From: Candidatus Levyibacteriota bacterium
Lineage (GTDB): Bacteria; Patescibacteria; Microgenomatia; Levybacterales; UBA12049
NCBI GenBank assembly: GCA_003173915.1
Contig: PPGL01000082.1
Location: 1-10,175, forward strand
Length of the DNA stretch: 10,175 nt
Direction of reading: 5' to 3'
A model generated the notes under the pieces. It was not told the origin of the DNA and made no database searches. It saw only the letters and a list, made by a program, of their open reading frames with translations. Position numbers and translations under genes: made by a program. This document shows, piece by piece, positions 1 through 7,944 of this stretch (positions are counted from its first letter, which is position 1; each line of letters opens with the position of its first letter).

Positions 1-543
1 TCCAGCGCCAATAACTACAGAAACTGCATCGGCAGCATCTGTAACAGAAACACCTGTTGTCGGGCTATTTTGGGCCCTCGCATCAATGCCTGCTGCGTGA
101 TTCCATCCACGAAACCAAAGAGATGCATAGAGTCTTTTGGGTGCAACTGTTTTACAATATGTTTCCCAATCTCTTTTCCCAAGTGGATGAATAGACATAT
201 TAATAATGTTTGCGCCTTCTTTTTGTACTGCTTCTTGGGAAAGTTTTATGTCTTGCCACATGCGCTCTCTGAGATCGTGCAGAGACGTTGTCACTGGTAG
301 TGCAGTTTCGAGGAGATTAAATCCATTATCAAGTCCTTGTTCGCCAAGATCGGTACTTAATACACCAATATTTACTCCTTTTCTGGCATCACTTTCATGA
401 AACGATTGAAATGTATTTCTTTTTGTTGCTGCCTTTTTCAGCTCGTCAAAATATGCCTGAGATACAAGATGCGGCAATCCAGTTTTATTGTCTGCAATAG
501 TTTTTTCAAGTTCTGCACCGTAAGTCGTTACTGCTTTTTTCAT
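1..543 (-). CDS. Glutamate-cysteine ligase-like (GCS2-type) protein, N-terminal 181 residues, partial
   Basis: The reading frame opens with ATG at 543 and runs off the left edge, so the C-terminal part is missing. I tentatively place it with the GCS2-type glutamate-cysteine ligase/carboxylate-amine ligase family, which joins glutamate to an amine substrate using ATP. The hints are an early acidic strand (YGAELEKTIAD, residues 8-18), a GFNLLETALPV stretch (74-84) followed by a helix and SIHPL (117-121), and NHAAGIDARAQNSP (148-161) before a VTDAADAV helix. These resemble the family's layout of a Glu-rich first strand, NLE-type strand, HPL loop and substrate-binding His segment. No motif is decisive. 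The gene starts 2 nt after the stop of the 892-residue gene, so the two are almost certainly cotranscribed and probably translationally coupled. An AAGGAA element lies 6 nt before the ATG. The protein could be another ATP-grasp-like or glutamine-synthetase-fold ligase. Confidence 0.5.
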   Translation of the reverse strand, partial: MKKAVTTYGAELEKTIADNKTGLPHLVSQAYFDELKKAATKRNTFQSFHESDARKGVNIGVLSTDLGEQGLDNGFNLLETALPVTTSLHDLRERMWQDIKLSQEAVQKEGANIINMSIHPLGKRDWETYCKTVAPKRLYASLWFRGWNHAAGIDARAQNSPTTGVSVTDAADAVSVVIGAG

Positions 544-545
544 AC

Positions 546-3224
546 TTAATTCCTTGCTCCTCTTCTTGTACCACCTGCAGCAAAGGTTTCCAGCAAGAAT
601 TTATTATACTCAGCTGCGGCTGTTTGTGGATCTGGATCAATATCTCGAAGGAGAGTATGTATATCGCTAGCAACCTCAGATAATTTAAAAATTTTTGAAT
701 TCTGTTCCTCAAGCATTGCCTGTGTGGCTGTACGGGCAACGTCATTGATAATTGCATCAGTCCATTTGCTAAAATTTTGGGCTCTGTTTTCTTCTTCGTT
801 TTCTAGGTGGGGTATATCATCCGATCTTTCTACCAATGGACCATCGTATTTTAATACTGATCGTAGAGATTCTTTCATCTGTCGTCTGAGTATTGCAAGA
901 CGTGCTTTAACTTCTTCAATATTTCCCTGTCCACCTTGAGCTTCTATGGCTTCTATTTCATCATATTCTCTACGAATTGCTGTAGCAAATTGTCTAGACA
1001 TTTCTTGAGGAAGGGTAACTGTAGCACCTTCGGGTAATGATCCTGATCCTAATTGTTTGTTTACAAACTGTGTTGTTTTTTTAAGTCTGGCATATTTTGC
1101 TTCCGCTGCTTGGATAGCTTTACCATAACCTTCAAAATTTAACGGGGTAAATGTAGGGTACACAACGCTATCAACTCCTTCAGCAACATAATATGTTGGT
1201 ACTCCTGCTCCTACACGTATAACCGTTTCAAGGTGTGTTAATGGGTAAAACATACGTAGTACCAGTGGATCATTTGTTAATTGCTCTAAGAGTTCAAGAT
1301 TTCTTGTTCCATGTGCTTGGTTAATTTCTATTCTTTTGTTTACGCGATTTGTCCTATCTTGATCAAGTTGTATTTTTAATGCTTCAAGCTGTGGAATGTC
1401 CTCTTTAGCTGGTTTGTTTTTTGATAAGTCAGCTACCACTTTTGCCCATTCTACTAATGGATCATCTGAATGTTTTATAGTATCTGAAAGCGCCATATCA
1501 GAAAGAAATTGTCGTGCTGACGGGCTTTCTTTACATGCAATGTTAATTGCTTGAAAGAGTAGGGCAAATGGGGTTTTACCTTTTAAGGTTCCTCCTTGAG
1601 CTAACTCTAATACTTTTGCTGCAATAGTATCAACTGGTTGATTTGCAAGAAGAAGACGATTGTCGATCCACGCAAGAAAGCCATCGATTGTTGCATTTTC
1701 TGCAACCAGCTTGCGAAAAACTCCGAAGACTAATTCAGGGGTACCTTGATGATATATAACATGTCGAGAAACTGATGCAGGTTCCATAATGTTTGCTGGT
1801 GGCATTTTTTGTCCGGGATCAACATGGACCTGAGGATCCGCGAAAAAGAAAAAATGTAACATCGCATATGCTTCAGATGGGGTCATACCGAAAATATTAT
1901 CAGTGTAGCCTCCATTTCGAGTAGCATGTAATTTTCTATGGTGAGTGCCAAAATCATCCAATATTTTTTGTGCTCTTTCCCTTTTTCCATCAAATGAGCG
2001 AACTAGATCACGTGCGTATAACAACTGCATTCTCGTTGCAAAATCATGAGTTTCCCATGGAGTATCATTTTGGAATTCCAATGAATCAGCAAGTGTTGAA
2101 TGATATCGTTGAACATAACTTCGCAATAATTGTTGCGTTTGATCTCGTGCTGAAAGTACTTTTTCTTCATCCATGCCATTAATATGTATTGCTGCATTTG
2201 CCGCATTAAAGATAACTAATTTGGGAAGTTGCGTCGAAAAATGATAGTCTGTTTGTAGTTGGGCAACCATGTCTGCATCCAAGGAAATTCCGAGAAATTG
2301 TTCCCATGCGCTCTCTAAAATTTGCATTGCTTCTTGATGTGGGAGTAAATGAAGATCTGGTGCTACCTGTACTGTTTTTTCAGTATCGCCGTCCATAACT
2401 ACTTTTGTTTGTTTATCAGCAAGTTCGGGTTTTTTTTCTATCATCCTGTCCCAGGTCCAAGATTCTATTTCTTTTCTTTTAACTTCACGTGCTTTTTTTT
2501 GAGCTTCAGGATCCTTTAGCACAATTCTTTCTGCTGCACGGTCAAACAGCTCGTGGTTAATTGCCCAAACACTGTATCCTTGTGATGCTTCTTGGATTCT
2601 TTCTAATGTTTTAAGCCCGGAAACAATATATGCAGGTGTACGGGCATTAACAACTTCTTCTCCACCCATTCCAATTCGAATTTGTGTTTGCTCTATTAAT
2701 TCAGGATTGTTAAACCAATCAATTGCTATTTCAACGCATGACAACAAATCTCGTTGATATATATTTGATATATCTTCACTTGTTAAAACAAGAGCTCGTA
2801 CGAGTTCGGGTAACAAATAACCCATTCTATTCAAATGCTTTTGTGCTTCTGTTTGTCCTAATGTGCGGGTGCTATCGGTGATTAATTTCGTTGTTTCTGC
2901 ATGCAATTCTGCCAAAAATGTAGAATTTTCGGTTGCTGGATAAGTTTCTCCCCATTCATTAAATAATCTGACTTGTTGTTGCTTTTCTGGGTTGAATCCG
3001 TCACGCTGAAATACAGTTTGCCAGATTGTTTCAGAAAGAGCTTCTTCAACAGTTTTAGAAAAAGCTTTTTCAAGATCTTTACGAAGAACTGGAGTTTTAC
3101 GATTTTTTTCTCGTTCAGGAGTTGGTACAGTTTCCCTTCTTGCAGGATTTTTTGCACCAGAAATACCATCCTGTCTCTGAGAAGGTACTCTTTGTCCGTC
3201 TAGTCTTTCTGATACTGCTCCCAT
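546..3224 (-). CDS. Large hypothetical cytoplasmic protein, 892 residues
   Basis: I do not recognise this protein. It has no signal peptide and no clear membrane segment. The first 50 residues are rich in Arg, Lys, Gln and Glu and look disordered. The rest is mostly amphipathic helix, with likely coiled-coil stretches around residues 600-640, 745-790 and 835-860. A conspicuous HFFFF run sits at 457-461, followed by a His/Pro-rich segment (466-492). The tail is Gly/Arg-rich (GGTRRGARN). The start is the first ATG after an in-frame TAG 36 nt upstream; no other start codon lies between them. It is unusual that an intrinsic terminator hairpin and its U-run end only 7 nt before this ATG. A perfect AGGAGG lies on the far side of that hairpin (3257-3262). 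Expression should therefore depend on readthrough of the attenuator cassette at 3232-3332. It shares an operon with the GCS2-like gene. The function is unknown. Confidence 0.85.
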   Translation of the reverse strand: MGAVSERLDGQRVPSQRQDGISGAKNPARRETVPTPEREKNRKTPVLRKDLEKAFSKTVEEALSETIWQTVFQRDGFNPEKQQQVRLFNEWGETYPATENSTFLAELHAETTKLITDSTRTLGQTEAQKHLNRMGYLLPELVRALVLTSEDISNIYQRDLLSCVEIAIDWFNNPELIEQTQIRIGMGGEEVVNARTPAYIVSGLKTLERIQEASQGYSVWAINHELFDRAAERIVLKDPEAQKKAREVKRKEIESWTWDRMIEKKPELADKQTKVVMDGDTEKTVQVAPDLHLLPHQEAMQILESAWEQFLGISLDADMVAQLQTDYHFSTQLPKLVIFNAANAAIHINGMDEEKVLSARDQTQQLLRSYVQRYHSTLADSLEFQNDTPWETHDFATRMQLLYARDLVRSFDGKRERAQKILDDFGTHHRKLHATRNGGYTDNIFGMTPSEAYAMLHFFFFADPQVHVDPGQKMPPANIMEPASVSRHVIYHQGTPELVFGVFRKLVAENATIDGFLAWIDNRLLLANQPVDTIAAKVLELAQGGTLKGKTPFALLFQAINIACKESPSARQFLSDMALSDTIKHSDDPLVEWAKVVADLSKNKPAKEDIPQLEALKIQLDQDRTNRVNKRIEINQAHGTRNLELLEQLTNDPLVLRMFYPLTHLETVIRVGAGVPTYYVAEGVDSVVYPTFTPLNFEGYGKAIQAAEAKYARLKKTTQFVNKQLGSGSLPEGATVTLPQEMSRQFATAIRREYDEIEAIEAQGGQGNIEEVKARLAILRRQMKESLRSVLKYDGPLVERSDDIPHLENEEENRAQNFSKWTDAIINDVARTATQAMLEEQNSKIFKLSEVASDIHTLLRDIDPDPQTAAAEYNKFLLETFAAGGTRRGARN

Positions 3225-3271
3225 AAATAATAAAAAAACCCGCCTAGTTGGCGGGTCCTCCTAATTTGCAT
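3200..3271 (-). CDS. Possible 23-codon ORF overlapping the terminator and the start of the 892-residue gene
   Basis: An ATG at 3271 follows a GGAGGA element (3278-3283) with 6-nt spacing, the best Shine-Dalgarno arrangement in the window. The ORF begins MQIRRTRQ, reads through the terminator hairpin, crosses the start codon of the large gene in another frame and ends in TAG at 3200. A ribosome on it would melt the terminator and could feed reinitiation at the nearby ATG. The second cassette has an ATG at the equivalent place (4542, MQPYRR..., 15 codons) but without a good SD. It may be chance, because the ATGCAA is also part of a conserved stem. Confidence 0.25.
   Translation of the reverse strand: MQIRRTRQLGGFFYYLWEQYQKD
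3232..3256 (-). terminator. Intrinsic terminator of attenuator 1, directly before the 892-residue gene
   Basis: On the minus-strand RNA the arms ACCCGCC and GGCGGGT (7 bp) enclose the loop AACTA and are followed by a run of U; the plus strand shows seven A at 3232-3238. It lies about 150 nt after the stop of the M15 gene but only 7 nt before the next start codon. It therefore acts as a leader terminator rather than simply an operon end, although it would also stop readthrough from upstream. Confidence 0.85.
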
Positions 3272-3319
3272 TATGAGTCCTCCGCCGTTAGGCGTTCATA
3301 AGGACTACAATAAGTGCAA
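3257..3319 (-). promoter_or_regulatory. Attenuator 1: nested leader hairpin with alternative antiterminator pairing
   Basis: The RNA can fold into a long nested hairpin with three tiers. The outer tier is TTGCA (3315-3319) with TGCAA (3266-3270). The middle tier is AGTCCT (3301-3306) with AGGACT (3276-3281). The core is CGCC (3291-3294) with GGCG (3283-3286), closed by UAAC, which contains the leader ORF's stop codon. The GGCGG strand (3282-3286) can instead pair with the CCGCC arm of the terminator (3250-3255), which would be an antiterminator. This gives the 1:2, 2:3, 3:4 logic of translation-controlled attenuation. A ribosome halted inside the ORF covers strand 1, frees strand 2 for pairing with strand 3, and allows readthrough into the 892-residue gene. 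Pairings were read by eye; energies were not computed. Confidence 0.65.
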
Positions 3320-3332
3320 TTTGCTTTACCAT
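3288..3332 (-). CDS. Leader peptide 1, 14 residues (MVKQIALIVVLMNA)
   Basis: This 14-codon ORF starts 7 nt behind the -10 box, so the transcript should begin at or within a base or two of the ATG, making it leaderless. The peptide is MVKQIALIVVLMNA, with a run of Ile, Ala, Leu and Val in the middle. Its GCC-TAA end forms the 5' arm and loop of the GC-rich hairpin. It shares the MVK start, the hydrophobic centre and the Ala-stop end with leader peptide 2 at 4562-4609. At 14 residues it is too short for a membrane toxin, so a cis-acting leader peptide is the better reading. No database search was possible. Confidence 0.6.
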   Translation of the reverse strand: MVKQIALIVVLMNA

Positions 3333-3339
3333 ATTAGCT

Positions 3340-3369
3340 ATTCTATCAAAATGGATATATGAAAGTCAA
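3340..3369 (-). promoter_or_regulatory. Promoter of the leader 1/892-residue gene operon
   Basis: TTGACT (3364-3369) and TAGAAT (3340-3345) are separated by 18 bp on the minus strand. The expected start site is at about 3332-3334, on or just before the leader ORF's ATG. The hexamers and spacer length match those of the promoter at 4619-4648, and both have TTT directly after the -35 box. Confidence 0.75.
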
Positions 3370-3404
3370 CAAAGGGGAGTGATAGCTATGAAAATATAGC
3401 AGTA

Positions 3405-4421
3405 CTAGTGATAAGAAAAATTTGTATAATACTCGCTCGGATCGTATGGAATAATTTCCCCTGTTTCTTGGTTAAATCCTTTAATTGGTCCATACGTTGT
3501 TGGATATGTTGTGTGCTCTTTGGCAGTTATTGAGGCGAGCACATCCCCTTCTGAAACATGCCAGTCCTCTCCCGGATACACGAGAAATCCTGCCATTTCT
3601 GCAACTTGTCTAAATAATTGTCTTGTTTCCCATTGCTCTTGTGTAACATATGGACAATCAAGAGCGACAAATGCTCCAAGTGATAAATATTTGTGGCCTA
3701 AATCTAGCTCGGTTCCATCAGTTGTACGAAGCGTATAATCTATTGCGGCACCACTTTTATGTCCAGCAAGCCATGGTGAAATGGCAACCATGCTTCGAGC
3801 TTCTGCCCGTAATGTTTCCTCGTCAACATTTTCTCCTGCCTTGTTATGGCTTGCTCGGAAAATGTTCATTACCGACTGAAATAATCCCTCTTGCACTCCT
3901 TCTGGTCGAAATCCATCTTCAACATGTACTGCCAGTCCAATTGCGTTATATGCCTGAGCAAGTCGTACAAATCTTTTTGCAATTTCCTCTCTTGCCCAGT
4001 ATACACGAGGTTTTCCTGCCCATCCTTCACTTGCTGCTGCAGTGATTGGAATATCGCTAAATGTTGCTGTAACATCTTTTTCAGCAAGTGCTTCTTGAAG
4101 AGAGACCATTCTTTCTCCGCTTTCTACAATTACAGTGTCTCGAACGCCATCTTGTAGAGAAGTGAAATATTGTCCAAATGGTCCATCAAACTCCTGTGCG
4201 ACAATATCTCTTTGGCGTTGGGTAAGTGGTTTGTCTAAAAATCCGTGATCAGGAACGGTTAGTGTTGGAGGTTTCACTCCAAGAAAATTAGCAGCAGTAG
4301 CAAGTTTTGCTTGGAGTGTTCTAATTCTTTCTTGATCTGGCGAGACAAATCGTACTCCCAATTCTCGAGCAAAATCTGCATCTCTTCTTCTTAATGTTTC
4401 AGTGTTTAATTTTGTAGGCAT
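3405..4421 (-). CDS. M15-family (VanX/DdpX-like) zinc D-Ala-D-Ala dipeptidase
   Basis: The protein has 338 residues and all key motifs of the VanX/D-alanyl-D-alanine dipeptidase branch of peptidase family M15. These are EDGFRP (168-173, with the transition-state Arg172), GHKSGAAID (220-228, zinc ligands His221 and Asp228) and GEDWH (284-288, catalytic Glu285 and zinc ligand His288). The family cleaves D-Ala-D-Ala or related peptidoglycan peptides. The N-terminal 130 residues are extra compared with VanX (about 200 residues) and are not recognised. No signal peptide is visible, so a cytoplasmic role in recycling D-amino-acid peptides is likely. The start is ATG 4421, with a loose GAGAGGA about 14 nt upstream; an in-phase terminator cassette lies about 90 nt further up (4511-4609). 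No good terminator follows the stop; the next promoter begins 36 bp downstream. Resistance to glycopeptides should not be assumed. Confidence 0.8.
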   Translation of the reverse strand: MPTKLNTETLRRRDADFARELGVRFVSPDQERIRTLQAKLATAANFLGVKPPTLTVPDHGFLDKPLTQRQRDIVAQEFDGPFGQYFTSLQDGVRDTVIVESGERMVSLQEALAEKDVTATFSDIPITAAASEGWAGKPRVYWAREEIAKRFVRLAQAYNAIGLAVHVEDGFRPEGVQEGLFQSVMNIFRASHNKAGENVDEETLRAEARSMVAISPWLAGHKSGAAIDYTLRTTDGTELDLGHKYLSLGAFVALDCPYVTQEQWETRQLFRQVAEMAGFLVYPGEDWHVSEGDVLASITAKEHTTYPTTYGPIKGFNQETGEIIPYDPSEYYTNFSYH

Positions 4422-4510
4422 ATAAATTTTCCAAATCCTCTCTTATTTTTGTATCCTTTCATGTTTACTTAATAGTTCAAATTGTTGATTTTCACTATCT
4501 ACTTTTCCAC

Positions 4511-4532
4511 AAAAAAACCGCCTTTCGGCGGT
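4511..4532 (-). terminator. Intrinsic terminator of attenuator 2, upstream of the M15 gene
   Basis: The minus-strand RNA has ACCGCC and GGCGGT arms with a GAAA tetraloop and a run of U (seven A on the plus strand at 4511-4517). It lies roughly 90 nt before the M15 start codon and about 150 nt after the stop of the preceding gene. It has the same stem core and U-run as the terminator at 3232-3256. Confidence 0.85.
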
Positions 4533-4584
4533 AAGGTTGCATTACGCAATTACTTCCCGCCTTAGGCGTGAATAATAATTGCAA
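4533..4584 (-). promoter_or_regulatory. Attenuator 2: nested leader hairpin with alternative antiterminator pairing
   Basis: This has the same plan as attenuator 1 but with different bases. A perfect 7-bp stem GCAATTA (4576-4582)/TAATTGC (4546-4552) encloses the core CGCC (4565-4568)/GGCG (4558-4561), with the UAA stop codon as its loop. An alternative outer pair TTGCA (4580-4584)/TGCAA (4537-4541) matches the outer tier of attenuator 1. The GGCGGG strand (4556-4561) can instead pair with the CCGCC arm of the terminator (4527-4531). The enclosing stem is kept while its sequence has changed completely, which is the pattern expected of selected RNA structure. Read by eye, not folded computationally. 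Confidence 0.65.
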
Positions 4585-4609
4585 TAATTTGTGAAAAAGT
4601 TTTTACCAT
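4562..4609 (-). CDS. Leader peptide 2, 15 residues (MVKTFSQIIAIIIHA)
   Basis: A 15-codon ORF starts 9 nt behind a TAGAAT box, so the RNA should carry at most about 1-3 nt before the ATG. The peptide MVKTFSQIIAIIIHA has five Ile codons (all ATT) within six positions (8-13). Like leader 1 it starts MVK and ends in Ala-stop with GCC-TAA inside the core hairpin. The Ile run lies 1-2 codons upstream of the hairpin arm, where a stalled ribosome would mask it. The signal sensed could be charged tRNA-Ile, an antibiotic, or the nascent peptide itself. Confidence 0.65.
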   Translation of the reverse strand: MVKTFSQIIAIIIHA

Positions 4610-4618
4610 AATAAAGCC

Positions 4619-4648
4619 ATTCTAGCAAAGTGCATAAATTAAAGTCAA
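4619..4648 (-). promoter_or_regulatory. Promoter of the leader 2/M15 peptidase unit
   Basis: TTGACT (4643-4648) and TAGAAT (4619-4624) are 18 bp apart on the minus strand. The hexamers and spacing equal those at 3340-3369, suggesting duplication or a common regulatory design. The -35 box begins about 30 bp after the stop of the preceding gene. Confidence 0.75.
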
Positions 4649-4679: not shown

Positions 4680-5390
4680 TTATCCAGTCTGTGTTGCCGT
4701 AGAACGCTCGCCAGAAAGGGTAAAGTTGTTGCCATGTGTTTTTGCCATATCCCAGTAATTCATTCCTTTTTTCTGCTTGCCTGCCCCAGGGCCTCCTTTT
4801 TGCTTACCTTTCATTGTCGATAGCCATACATTTGCATTGTCAACTTTTTGTCGTGCATCACGAACAATGGCAATAATCCATGAGAAAAAGGTTTTGTGAT
4901 ACTTTCCTGGAGATACTACATTACCTCCTGTTGCCTCAACAACTTGCTTCTCAAGCGATGCTGATGCACCTGCAAGGCTTTTTACTTCCATAATAAGGTT
5001 TTGGATTTCTTCGCGAAGCTTTTGCGTTTCGTGTTGTGTTTGTTTTTCATGACTATGAAGTATCTCTCCAACATAATCTATTGCCGGACGGATATTTTCT
5101 GCTTTTTTCTGCATCTGCTTTTGCTGTTCTTGTTGGGCTGCTTGTGCTTTTGCCTGTGCTTTTAAATCGACTTCTTGGCCTGGATGAAGATCGCCGCTGT
5201 GTGATTTTGGCATCAGGTTGAATTCTCCTCCAAAAATTTGTTTTGCTGCTTCTCCAACTCCTGCTTTTGCCTGGTCTGCAACTTGTGTGGTAATGCCCTT
5301 GCCAATATCTTCAAATGCCTCAAAAGGATTAGAATATGAGGATTTTAGTTGGGGTTTTTTCTTTTTCTTTTTGTCGTCAGTATTCCACAT
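4680..5390 (-). CDS. Lys/Gln-rich hypothetical protein cotranscribed with trigger factor
   Basis: A 236-residue protein without signal peptide or clear membrane anchor. It has a Lys run (7-12), an Ala/Gln/Lys-rich probable coiled coil (about 75-100), a second helix-rich part (115-155), a conserved-looking core GKYHKTFFSWIIAIVRDARQ (162-181), a Gly/Lys/Pro linker (194-209) and a C-terminal segment YWDMAKTHGNNFTLSGERS (212-230). I associate this arrangement with uncharacterised Patescibacteria proteins, particularly Microgenomates (a DUF5660-like family from memory, not verified). It starts 12 nt after the trigger factor stop without a Shine-Dalgarno, which suggests translational coupling. The high Lys content could mean RNA or ribosome contact, which would fit its chaperone neighbour, but this is inference. 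Confidence 0.75.
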   Translation of the reverse strand: MWNTDDKKKKKKPQLKSSYSNPFEAFEDIGKGITTQVADQAKAGVGEAAKQIFGGEFNLMPKSHSGDLHPGQEVDLKAQAKAQAAQQEQQKQMQKKAENIRPAIDYVGEILHSHEKQTQHETQKLREEIQNLIMEVKSLAGASASLEKQVVEATGGNVVSPGKYHKTFFSWIIAIVRDARQKVDNANVWLSTMKGKQKGGPGAGKQKKGMNYWDMAKTHGNNFTLSGERSTATQTG

Positions 5391-6346: not shown

Positions 6347-6430
6347 GCGGATATGGCGGAATTGGTAGACGCGATAGGTTTAGGACCTATTGACCGTAAG
6401 GTTGTGGGGGTTCAAGTCCCTCTATCCGCA
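6347..6430 (+). tRNA. tRNA-Leu (anticodon UAG)
   Basis: The acceptor arms GCGGATA (6347-6353) and TATCCGC (6423-6429) pair perfectly, with discriminator A6430. The anticodon stem ATAGG/CCTAT encloses TTTAGGA, giving anticodon TAG. A long variable arm (GACC-GTAA-GGTT) and the T loop TTCAAGT mark a class II leucine tRNA reading CUN codons. CCA is not encoded (CAC follows). Confidence 0.96.
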
Positions 6431-6455
6431 CACGTTGACTTCAGCAACAGAATGT

Positions 6456-6482
6456 CCTATTCACTCGTTACAATGAAATAGG
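6456..6482 (-). other. Hairpin at the stop codon of the transglycosylase-like gene
   Basis: CCTATT and AATAGG arms with an inner CATT/AGTG extension (one G-U pair, one bulge) surround the TAA stop of the gene ending at 6468. No U-run follows on either strand, so it is not a standard terminator. It lies in the gap between the convergent tRNA-Leu and protein genes and may protect a 3' end. Confidence 0.3.
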
Positions 6483-7019
6483 AAGAGTCTGCGAATCGAA
6501 CTTCAATTTAAATTCCTCAATTTGGTTCATAAAGTAATCTGTGTGAGGTCCCCATGTCTCTGATGCTGCGTAAATATGTCCGATACTGTATACATCGTTT
6601 GCATGCCATTTATCCATATAATCATTTCGAATTGATTTTGAAACAGCCTCAATAGCATCCTGATATGTTGGGAAACACGTCATATGCCCGGTATAAATAC
6701 CAAATCCAAGCGGATTATTACAGCCAATTGGTACAGCCTGTCCAAAGGAAGATTCGGTGCCTGTCATGGCTGCAACAAGGTCCCATGGGAGCTTGTACAA
6801 ATCAGCTTGAGCAACAAAGACTTCTGCAAGTGGAGCAAGAGGAGAATTCTGGTTTTCTAAGAATTTTCTTAAAACCACTACCCTATCATCCTTTTGCTGT
6901 TGTTGTAACAGACCAGCAAAGGTAGCAGATGAACCAGATGTAGCTTCATCTGCAAAGGCTGTTGAGGTGAGTAAGCCAAACAAGAGGGCAAAAAGAATAT
7001 AAATAATTCCTGCCTTCAT
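6468..7019 (-). CDS. Exported transglycosylase/lysozyme-like protein (paralogue of the next gene)
   Basis: A 183-residue protein with a clear signal peptide (hydrophobic 4-19, predicted cleavage after AFA at 21-23). The mature part is a small lysozyme-like fold. A helix YKLPWDLVAAMTGTESSFG (75-93) carries the likely catalytic Glu89, followed by NNPLGFGIYTGH (101-112), a YQDAIEAVSKSI helix (119-130) and GHIYAASETWGPH. This is the layout of soluble lytic transglycosylase or glucosaminidase-like domains that cut the glycan strands of peptidoglycan. Cys100 and Cys115 could form a disulfide. It is paralogous to the protein at 7115-7735. The start is fixed by the signal peptide and an in-frame TAA 24 nt upstream. 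There is no Shine-Dalgarno; instead a UUCG hairpin and a terminator lie directly upstream. Confidence 0.8.
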   Translation of the reverse strand: MKAGIIYILFALLFGLLTSTAFADEATSGSSATFAGLLQQQQKDDRVVVLRKFLENQNSPLAPLAEVFVAQADLYKLPWDLVAAMTGTESSFGQAVPIGCNNPLGFGIYTGHMTCFPTYQDAIEAVSKSIRNDYMDKWHANDVYSIGHIYAASETWGPHTDYFMNQIEEFKLKFDSQTLPISL

Positions 7020-7808: not shown

Positions 7809-7895
7809 GCCCAAGTGGTGGAATTGGTAGACGCGCTAGTTTCAGGTACTAGTTCCCTTTAACAAGGAGTGGAGGTTCGAGTCCTCTCTTGGGCA
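7809..7895 (+). tRNA. tRNA-Leu (anticodon CAG)
   Basis: The acceptor arms GCCCAAG (7809-7815) and CTTGGGC (7888-7894) pair perfectly, with discriminator A7895. The anticodon stem CTAGT/ACTAG encloses TTCAGGT, giving anticodon CAG. The long variable arm and T loop TTCGAGT fit class II tRNA-Leu reading CUG. CCA is not encoded (CCC follows). The D arm has TGGTAGACGCG, as in the other tRNA-Leu. Confidence 0.96.
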
Positions 7896-7944
7896 CCCAA
7901 GGAGACACCCTCAGTCTCATACATACGAATGGATTGATAAATCG

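Follow-up and report, generated by a model that had tools for sequence, protein, structure and literature searches.

Two predicted leader-peptide attenuators in a Candidatus Levyibacteriota contig belong to a wider family of such putative switches

We studied a 10,175-nucleotide (nt) stretch of DNA, the whole of which is called the window here (contig PPGL01000082.1 of assembly GCA_003173915.1), from Candidatus Levyibacteriota bacterium, a member of the Patescibacteria. Its minus strand carries two short leaders, A (3369-3232) and B (4648-4511), in front of genes for an 892-amino-acid (aa) protein and an M15 peptidase, respectively. We consider it very probable that each of them is a ribosome-mediated transcription attenuator of the classical type, a judgement on the device itself and separate from the role of the gene cluster behind it. 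The two leaders are not isolated twins; they are members of a family of such putative switches. The evidence from computation comprises the anatomy of the leaders, their family, codon matching, covariation and thermodynamic switching.

Both leaders have the same layout, a short open reading frame (ORF) between a putative promoter and an intrinsic terminator, which also recurs in the family (see below). All of the elements listed in the initial annotation (coordinates, spacers, ORFs, hairpins and seven-U terminators) were found again on the minus strand. Leader A has a -35 hexamer TTGACT at 3369-3364 and, 18 nt further on, a -10 hexamer TAGAAT at 3345-3340, with the ATG at 3332 and the TAA stop at 3290-3288. 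The same hexamers, again 18 nt apart, are found at 4648-4643 and 4624-4619 in leader B, followed by an ATG at 4609 and a TAA at 4564-4562. These promoters (3340..3369 and 4619..4648, the latter with an extended -10) were recognized by consensus match only, and the distance from the -10 to the ATG is 7 nt in A and 9 nt in B. The ORFs encode the putative peptides MVKQIALIVVLMNA (A, 3288..3332) and MVKTFSQIIAIIIHA (B, 4562..4609). In both leaders a CGCC/GGCG hairpin, itself within a longer stem (helix 1:2; 3266..3319 in A and 4541..4588 in B, where it would be the anti-antiterminator hairpin over the stop codon), has the TAA in its loop, and the terminator follows. Strand 2, GGCGG (3282..3286 in A, 4557..4561 in B), has strand 3, CCGCC (3254-3250 and 4531-4527), as its antiterminator partner. 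The terminators, helix 3:4, are located at 3231..3263 in A (seven U at 3238-3232) and 4511..4532 in B (seven U at 4517-4511).

The pattern TAGAAT-N5-10-ATGGTAAA occurs twice in the window, a number reached in 0 of 200 shuffles. Taken singly, promoter-like sites (38 vs a shuffle mean of 31) and terminator-like sites (10 vs 7.4) showed no clear excess in the window; these scans being unremarkable, the weight is placed on the combination of elements and on the relatives. The same lack of excess speaks for an alternative in which the hairpins simply terminate transcription of the upstream genes (DUF5660 and M15) beside ordinary promoters, the short ORFs being due to chance. We regard this as very improbable: in both leaders the terminator comes after a promoter-like site, the ORFs fit the pathway of the gene behind them throughout the class, and the 1:2 pairs covary (see below).

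The search for relatives was centred on genome G003, whose trigger factor is 57% identical to that of the window. A first, sequence-only model built from the two window leaders and run on 82 genomes of the order of G003 gave 82 places at an expectation value (E) ≤0.5. Inspection of 33 of these places by eye yielded 19 leaders and one place cut by a contig end (L047); the other 13 (L052, L055-L057, L059, L065-L072) were dropped because they fell within coding sequence or did not show the design. A second sequence-only model, R2, was made from 21 leaders including both window leaders, whose own match to R2 therefore holds by construction, and was applied to 373 genomes from the class that contains G001, a named Roizmanbacterium; we take this class to be Microgenomatia. 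By hand count, among the matches listed, 70 of the 373 class genomes had an R2 match at E≤1e-6, eight of them having supplied sequences to R2. In a draw from the phylum the figure was 6 of 286 genomes, three of which (G091, G143 and G007) were also in the class draw. Among the matches listed, those at E≤0.02 were present in 295 of the 373 genomes, a number that includes plain terminators and is not a leader count, and reached up to nine per genome (G083 and G180). The initial annotation had suggested a device used throughout the lineage, and the homologous leaders in order and class genomes bear this out. A pattern scan of viral contigs gave 27 matching stretches, all of which were judged by eye to be chance, without promoter, hairpin and terminator.

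For the family analyses, 118 places were read from 74 genomes and the window: 108 R2 matches of the class scan, eight first-model matches and the two window leaders. They were not curated, and some may be no leaders. Seven places at E≤1e-6 were left out (two further G374 copies, G242:C19 at a contig end, G191:C10, G355:C70, G388:C79 and G165:C24), and five of those used were weaker than 1e-6 (two in G250:C8, G083:C81, G083:C35 and G051:C57:1106). Of the 118, 116 had a terminator and were non-identical, and 108 served for the test of helix 2:3. A mechanical rule found an ATG-started ORF in 110 of the 116, and in 102 the terminator score was also 14 or higher.

The predicted leader codons track the downstream pathway across the class. 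In the order genomes, leaders were found before genes that we take, from protein motifs read by eye, to encode threonine dehydratase (ilvA; MNMKFAGIIGIIITR, MKSIFAGIINIITTR, MKFDLINVIIINR and MLIKKAQIIINIITP), isopropylmalate synthase (leuA; MNSKNLLNLLLLTV, MKIVFNLLTLALLTV and MKFGLLLGLLLSR) and acetolactate synthase (ilvB; MKYNVTQLIIVLINR and MKFTKNLVVLIVTR). The class-wide R2 scan added leaders before DAHP synthase (10, with FYFYF-type runs), branched-chain aminotransferase (ilvE; 10) and citramalate synthase (3), and single cases before LeuRS (FLSFLLLNFA), IleRS (EIIITIIT), ThrRS (TSKIITAT) and cysteine synthase cysK (IICCTI). Across the 43 leaders with a labelled gene, cognate residues had a mean fraction of 0.413 vs 0.247 when labels were permuted (maximum 0.334), and 0 of 10,000 permutations did as well. 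In a draw made independently of leaders, namely DAHP synthase loci picked by family TIGR01361 in 137 genomes, 8/8 loci had an upstream same-strand R2 match at E<0.1, and none of 18 control loci had an R2 match. An aromatic run was present in all eight DAHP synthase leaders, seven of them listed by the script and the L260 ORF read from the sequence; a stricter script had found five of the eight. The codons of the window leaders point to Ile/Leu/Val.

The peptide changes according to the pathway that the downstream gene serves (runs of I, L or F/Y/W, and single cases with C or T), as arrest peptides would not. This also bears on a different kind of sensing, in which the leaders would detect translation inhibitors or another ligand by nascent-chain arrest, as in leaders of the erm, cat and ABC-F type. 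Such leaders likewise have a short ORF, hairpins and a terminator, and leader B begins MVKT, as compared with MVKTD in the cat-86 leader. No resistance gene was found beside the window leaders in a Pfam scan, a search that included no resistance-gene library, and we judge sensing by arrest extremely improbable. As a separate observation, pyruvate kinase-like genes, which are unexpected targets of attenuation, stand behind Ala/Val-rich (MVVNNKAVAVVAVLLP) or Ile/Val-rich (MKNQVLSIVVLITPLTAVSCNN) leaders at L062 (G064:C15) and L123 (G264:C4).

The enclosing stems of the window leaders differ in sequence and still pair, which had raised the suspicion of covariation. RNAalifold on a MAFFT alignment of 21 leaders found no pair, presumably because gaps shift the hairpins out of register; R1 (the first model) and R2 were therefore left sequence-only and covariation was tested by comparing duplexes of each leader's own strands with duplexes of strands crossed between leaders. 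For helix 1:2 the own duplexes averaged -18.7 vs -12.1 kcal/mol for the crossed ones (69 leaders, 0/10,000 permutations), leaders B and A ranking first and third of the 69. For helix 2:3 the values were -11.0 vs -9.1 kcal/mol (108 leaders, 0/10,000), own pairing being better than the mean cross in 91; leader B followed this trend (-10.1 vs -8.1). Both helices thus covary across the family, which upholds the suspicion, and the mutually exclusive helices 1:2, 2:3 and 3:4 have been kept, helix 2:3 of leader A being the exception.

Start signals were compared in the 62 leaders with enough upstream sequence. A -10-like hexamer was present 3-12 nt before the ATG in 53 of them vs a mean of 24.4 and a maximum of 34 in shuffled sequences, the commonest distances being 6-7 or 11-12 nt. 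A Shine-Dalgarno-like motif was found in 0/62, a comparison that covered leader starts. The leaders would apparently be carried on near-leaderless RNA.

The minimum-energy fold of each whole window leader contains the stop-codon hairpin with its own, differing enclosing stem. The fold z-scores were -5.6 and -3.5, and equal folding was obtained in 0 of 200 shuffles; when leader B was folded as 4508-4575 only, lacking its 5' part, the alternative 2:3 pairing was favoured. Switching was modelled by folding with a ribosome mask, for which we used footprint values of the E. coli ribosome. In leader A the probability (P) of the terminator was ~1 without a ribosome or with a ribosome at the stop codon, and a stall at codons 7-10 (L, I, V, V) gave P(2:3) of 0.89-0.95 for the antiterminator. 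In leader B, P(3:4) was likewise ~1 without a ribosome or with one at the stop, whereas stalls at codons 7-11 (Q, I, I, A, I) gave P(2:3) of at least 0.97 and stalls at codons 12-13 (I, I) gave 0.56-0.65. Of 101 family leaders, 95 had P(terminator) above 0.8 when a ribosome occupied the stop codon and 67 when the RNA was free, and some stall lowered the terminator to below 0.5 in 81. In these models the 1:2, 2:3 and 3:4 states would switch as expected in most, not all, family members.

From these results we infer transcript start, translation, stalling, read-through and direction of the response as follows. RNA polymerase would start at the leader ATG or a few bases before it, so that the peptide would be translated from near-leaderless RNA. 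If there were no translation, strand 1 would pair with strand 2 and the terminator 3:4 would form (off); a fast ribosome reaching the stop codon would cover strand 2, and the terminator would again form (off). When charged Ile, Leu or Val tRNA is short, the ribosome would stall on the run of Ile/Leu/Val codons and open 1:2, leaving strand 2 free to pair with strand 3, and transcription would continue into the gene (on). Leader B would be tuned mainly to isoleucine, and leader A to Ile, Leu and Val. Leader-peptide attenuation, as proposed at the outset for the two window leaders, is supported computationally by the homologous leaders, the 1:2 and 2:3 covariation, the gene-matched codons of the family and the folding with ribosome masks.

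The genes that the leaders would control lie directly downstream on the minus strand. The M15 peptidase behind leader B (3405..4421, 338 aa) is D-Ala-D-Ala dipeptidase-like (Pfam PF01427, E 4.5e-10). The 892-aa protein behind leader A (546..3224) has relatives P0102 and those in L171, L175 and L183. It gave no Pfam match above cut-off and no NCBIfam match at E 0.01; a profile of five relatives, applied to the 7995 candidates that had the most words in common, picked up P0102 and the window protein alone. An AlphaFold2 model of it was unusable (mean predicted local distance difference test score, pLDDT, of 38.3, from two sequences). At 1..543 is the start of a gene for a GCS2-like carboxylate-amine ligase that continues beyond the window and is presumably cotranscribed with the 892-aa gene. 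This ORF itself gave a weak NCBIfam match (E 0.0023, far below cut-off), and its BLAST partner, a 505-aa protein of L171, matches GCS2 PF04107 at 23.8 bits (cut-off 21).

M15 relatives were found in Roizmanbacteria and Woesebacteria, at only seven loci in the scan of the genome collection (L001-L007), and few genomes have this subfamily: 3 of the 373 in the class at E≤1e-20. In the Roizmanbacteria loci L001 and L002 a leader (MKSKVWSIMYVLFLTP and MSIKIYSILFVLFIDRI) stands at the head of what appears to be an operon, in which the M15 gene is accompanied by genes for a 515- or 519-aa uncharacterised protein, an enolase-superfamily protein and, after these, a protein resembling class-III aminotransferases. 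Next on the same strand in L001 is a gene for a radical-SAM-like protein, whose Pfam score is below cut-off; a relative of this protein is encoded on the opposite strand in L002. The M15 gene adjoins an enolase-superfamily gene in 5/5 loci examined (L001-L005). The 892-aa relatives in L171, L175 and L183 each lie behind an Ile/Leu/Val-rich leader; L175 and L183 were found via their leaders, and the L171 relative was the sole protein match in 82 genomes, obtained before the leader search. Downstream of the 892-aa relative in L171 come genes for a GCS2-like ligase, which is a relative of window ORF 1-543, for an enolase-superfamily protein exceeding the cut-off of TIGR01928, and for an M20 deacylase. 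M20 enzymes are also encoded at other loci with a leader at their head, as are a GNAT protein and, with a score below cut-off, a circularly permuted ATP-grasp-like protein. The two window genes had been described as unrelated; since M15 is also found in leader-headed operons of L001 and L002, this part of the initial annotation may not hold.

The M15, 892-aa and GCS2-like genes belong to a recurring kit that most likely, though we hold this with low confidence, supplies or recycles amino acids. The kit suggests salvage of amino acids or peptides, for example through D-to-L conversion via N-acyl amino acids, a known route. A fuller reading, which we hold tentatively and with somewhat less than even confidence, is that near-leaderless attenuation is a main control of amino-acid genes in the class and that the leader codons reveal a new, modular branched-chain supply cluster switched on at Ile/Leu/Val shortage. 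This cluster would comprise the M15 dipeptidase, an enolase-superfamily (N-acyl)amino-acid racemase, the M20 deacylase, the class-III aminotransferase, GCS2-like and ATP-grasp-like ligases, the radical-SAM protein and the 892-aa family. It is also possible, at a level short of probable, that the attenuator is real but the window genes answer a general slowing of translation, the Ile/Leu/Val codons being a mere convenient sensor and the cluster unconnected to these amino acids. This alternative is about what the genes do rather than about the device, and it overlaps with the explanation preferred here. No branched-chain role is known for the M15, epimerase, GCS2-like and 892-aa genes, and a second leader in L002 is Phe-rich (MKNPGKLFTFFFNPTFSGVIF) and precedes a 391-aa uncharacterised protein and an M20 enzyme, both of which agree with a general response; the close tracking of the product amino acid by the codons at labelled genes of the same class argues for a specific one.

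Several results weigh against ribosome-mediated attenuation tuned to Ile/Leu/Val. The codon, covariation and switching tests used sets of model matches without curation, and the model itself includes both window leaders. Only 2 of 12 acetolactate synthase (ilvB) loci over cut-off had an R2 match in the flank, and one of these (L227) is ~1.1 kb upstream, before ilvE; the 18 control loci without a match are related ones that score below the cut-off. In leader A the own 2:3 duplex (-10.1 kcal/mol) is no better than the crossed ones (-10.3), with a pairing of only 5 base pairs. Of the 101 modelled leaders, 20 had no stall that took the terminator below 0.5, and 34 failed to reach P(terminator)>0.8 in free RNA. 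In the 31 of 38 labelled leaders that had a release window, cognate residues made up 0.54 inside vs 0.30 outside; random windows of the same length matched this richness in 1164 of 5000 trials, so that the enrichment does not discriminate. Among the M15 loci searched (L001-L005 and L007), L003, L004, L005 and L007 had no leader match, and any link of the M15 and 892-aa genes to branched-chain amino acids is a putative one.

Leader B lies after the trigger factor and DUF5660 genes (DUF5660 at 4680..5390, minus strand; PF18904, E 2.1e-25), and the same slot has leaders in relatives. DUF5660 was present in 64 of 82 order genomes, and a same-strand R2 match was found within ~300 nt after it in 17 of 30 fetched loci, four of which (L198, L217, L220 and L221) are members of the R2 model. 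Genes after the matches in this slot include threonine dehydratase, acetolactate synthase and citramalate synthase. The leaders after DUF5660 at L042 (G023) and L053/L104 (G067) have no stop in the hairpin and their ORF continues through strand 2 (MVEKIKNLILVLINSLRGGKSDA; GTG-started VLNQLFKNIMNLINSLMGRSGS). Elsewhere in the window, two tRNA-Leu genes (6347-6431 and 7809-7897, plus strand; anticodons TAG and CAG) are a few kilobases from the Ile/Leu/Val-type leaders. At 7129-7020 of the minus strand, a long hairpin (ATCCTAAGGTATGC...GCATACGTTAGGAT) and seven T come directly after a promoter-like TTGACA-17-TATACT and are followed by a second hairpin, a T-rich stretch and then the ATG of a 183-aa ORF (6468-7019); here a terminator-like element separates the promoter from the gene, with no clear leader peptide.

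In Proteobacteria, ribosome-mediated leader-peptide attenuators are located at ilvGMEDA, ilvBN and leuABCD. The leaders described here share with them the ORF of regulatory codons, three mutually exclusive helices and a terminator before the first gene; they differ in the near-leaderless ORF without a Shine-Dalgarno-like motif, in the stop codon placed in the 1:2 hairpin loop, in the phylum, and in standing also before M15 and uncharacterised genes. Searches of the window and of 20 leader loci at gathering score matched no Rfam leader family, only tRNAs. The T-box riboswitch performs the same task, control by tRNA charging before a terminator, and differs in that sensing here would take place via a translated ORF. 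No T-box (RF00230) match was found in the window at gathering score. In the class, T-box matches were present in 47 of 94 genomes at E≤0.001 and in 8 of 94 over the gathering cut-off, so that two systems of tRNA-charging control seem to coexist there.

Leaders in tandem before one gene were seen at L124 (G276:C33) and L119 (G388:C88), where both are aromatic and precede DAHP synthase, and at L175 (G345:C25), where both are Ile/Leu/Val-rich and precede the 892-aa relative. The signals of the Salmonella mgtCBR attenuators differ from those proposed here. The mgtCBR operon resembles these three loci in having tandem attenuators, two short leader ORFs before one operon, but both ORFs are in one leader there and each has its own terminator here (PMC3641672). 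In Actinobacteria, leader peptides with terminators were predicted before ilvB, and classical attenuators before trp, trpS and leuS (PMC1262725). That study has in common with this work the combination of leader peptide and terminator before ilvB and an aminoacyl-tRNA synthetase gene and the computational nature of the evidence, whereas here one design serves several amino acids within one class. No report of such leaders in Patescibacteria or the Candidate Phyla Radiation was found in the literature searched, subscription papers and preprints being outside its scope; PMC7143001 uses "leader peptide" for bacteriocin precursors, and PMC8939145 deals with modified peptides. The mechanism proposed for the window leaders is itself a textbook one.

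Gene control in Patescibacteria is little studied, and many of these bacteria are regarded as dependent on other cells for their amino acids. The short terminated RNAs expected from these leaders would be a searchable sign of them in RNA data. The same device precedes ordinary amino-acid genes and, in the window, the M15 and 892-aa genes; since the leader codons name an amino acid, they offer a means to guess the roles of uncharacterised operons such as the M15/892-aa cluster. If attenuation operates as proposed, Patescibacteria would sense single amino acids through translation itself.

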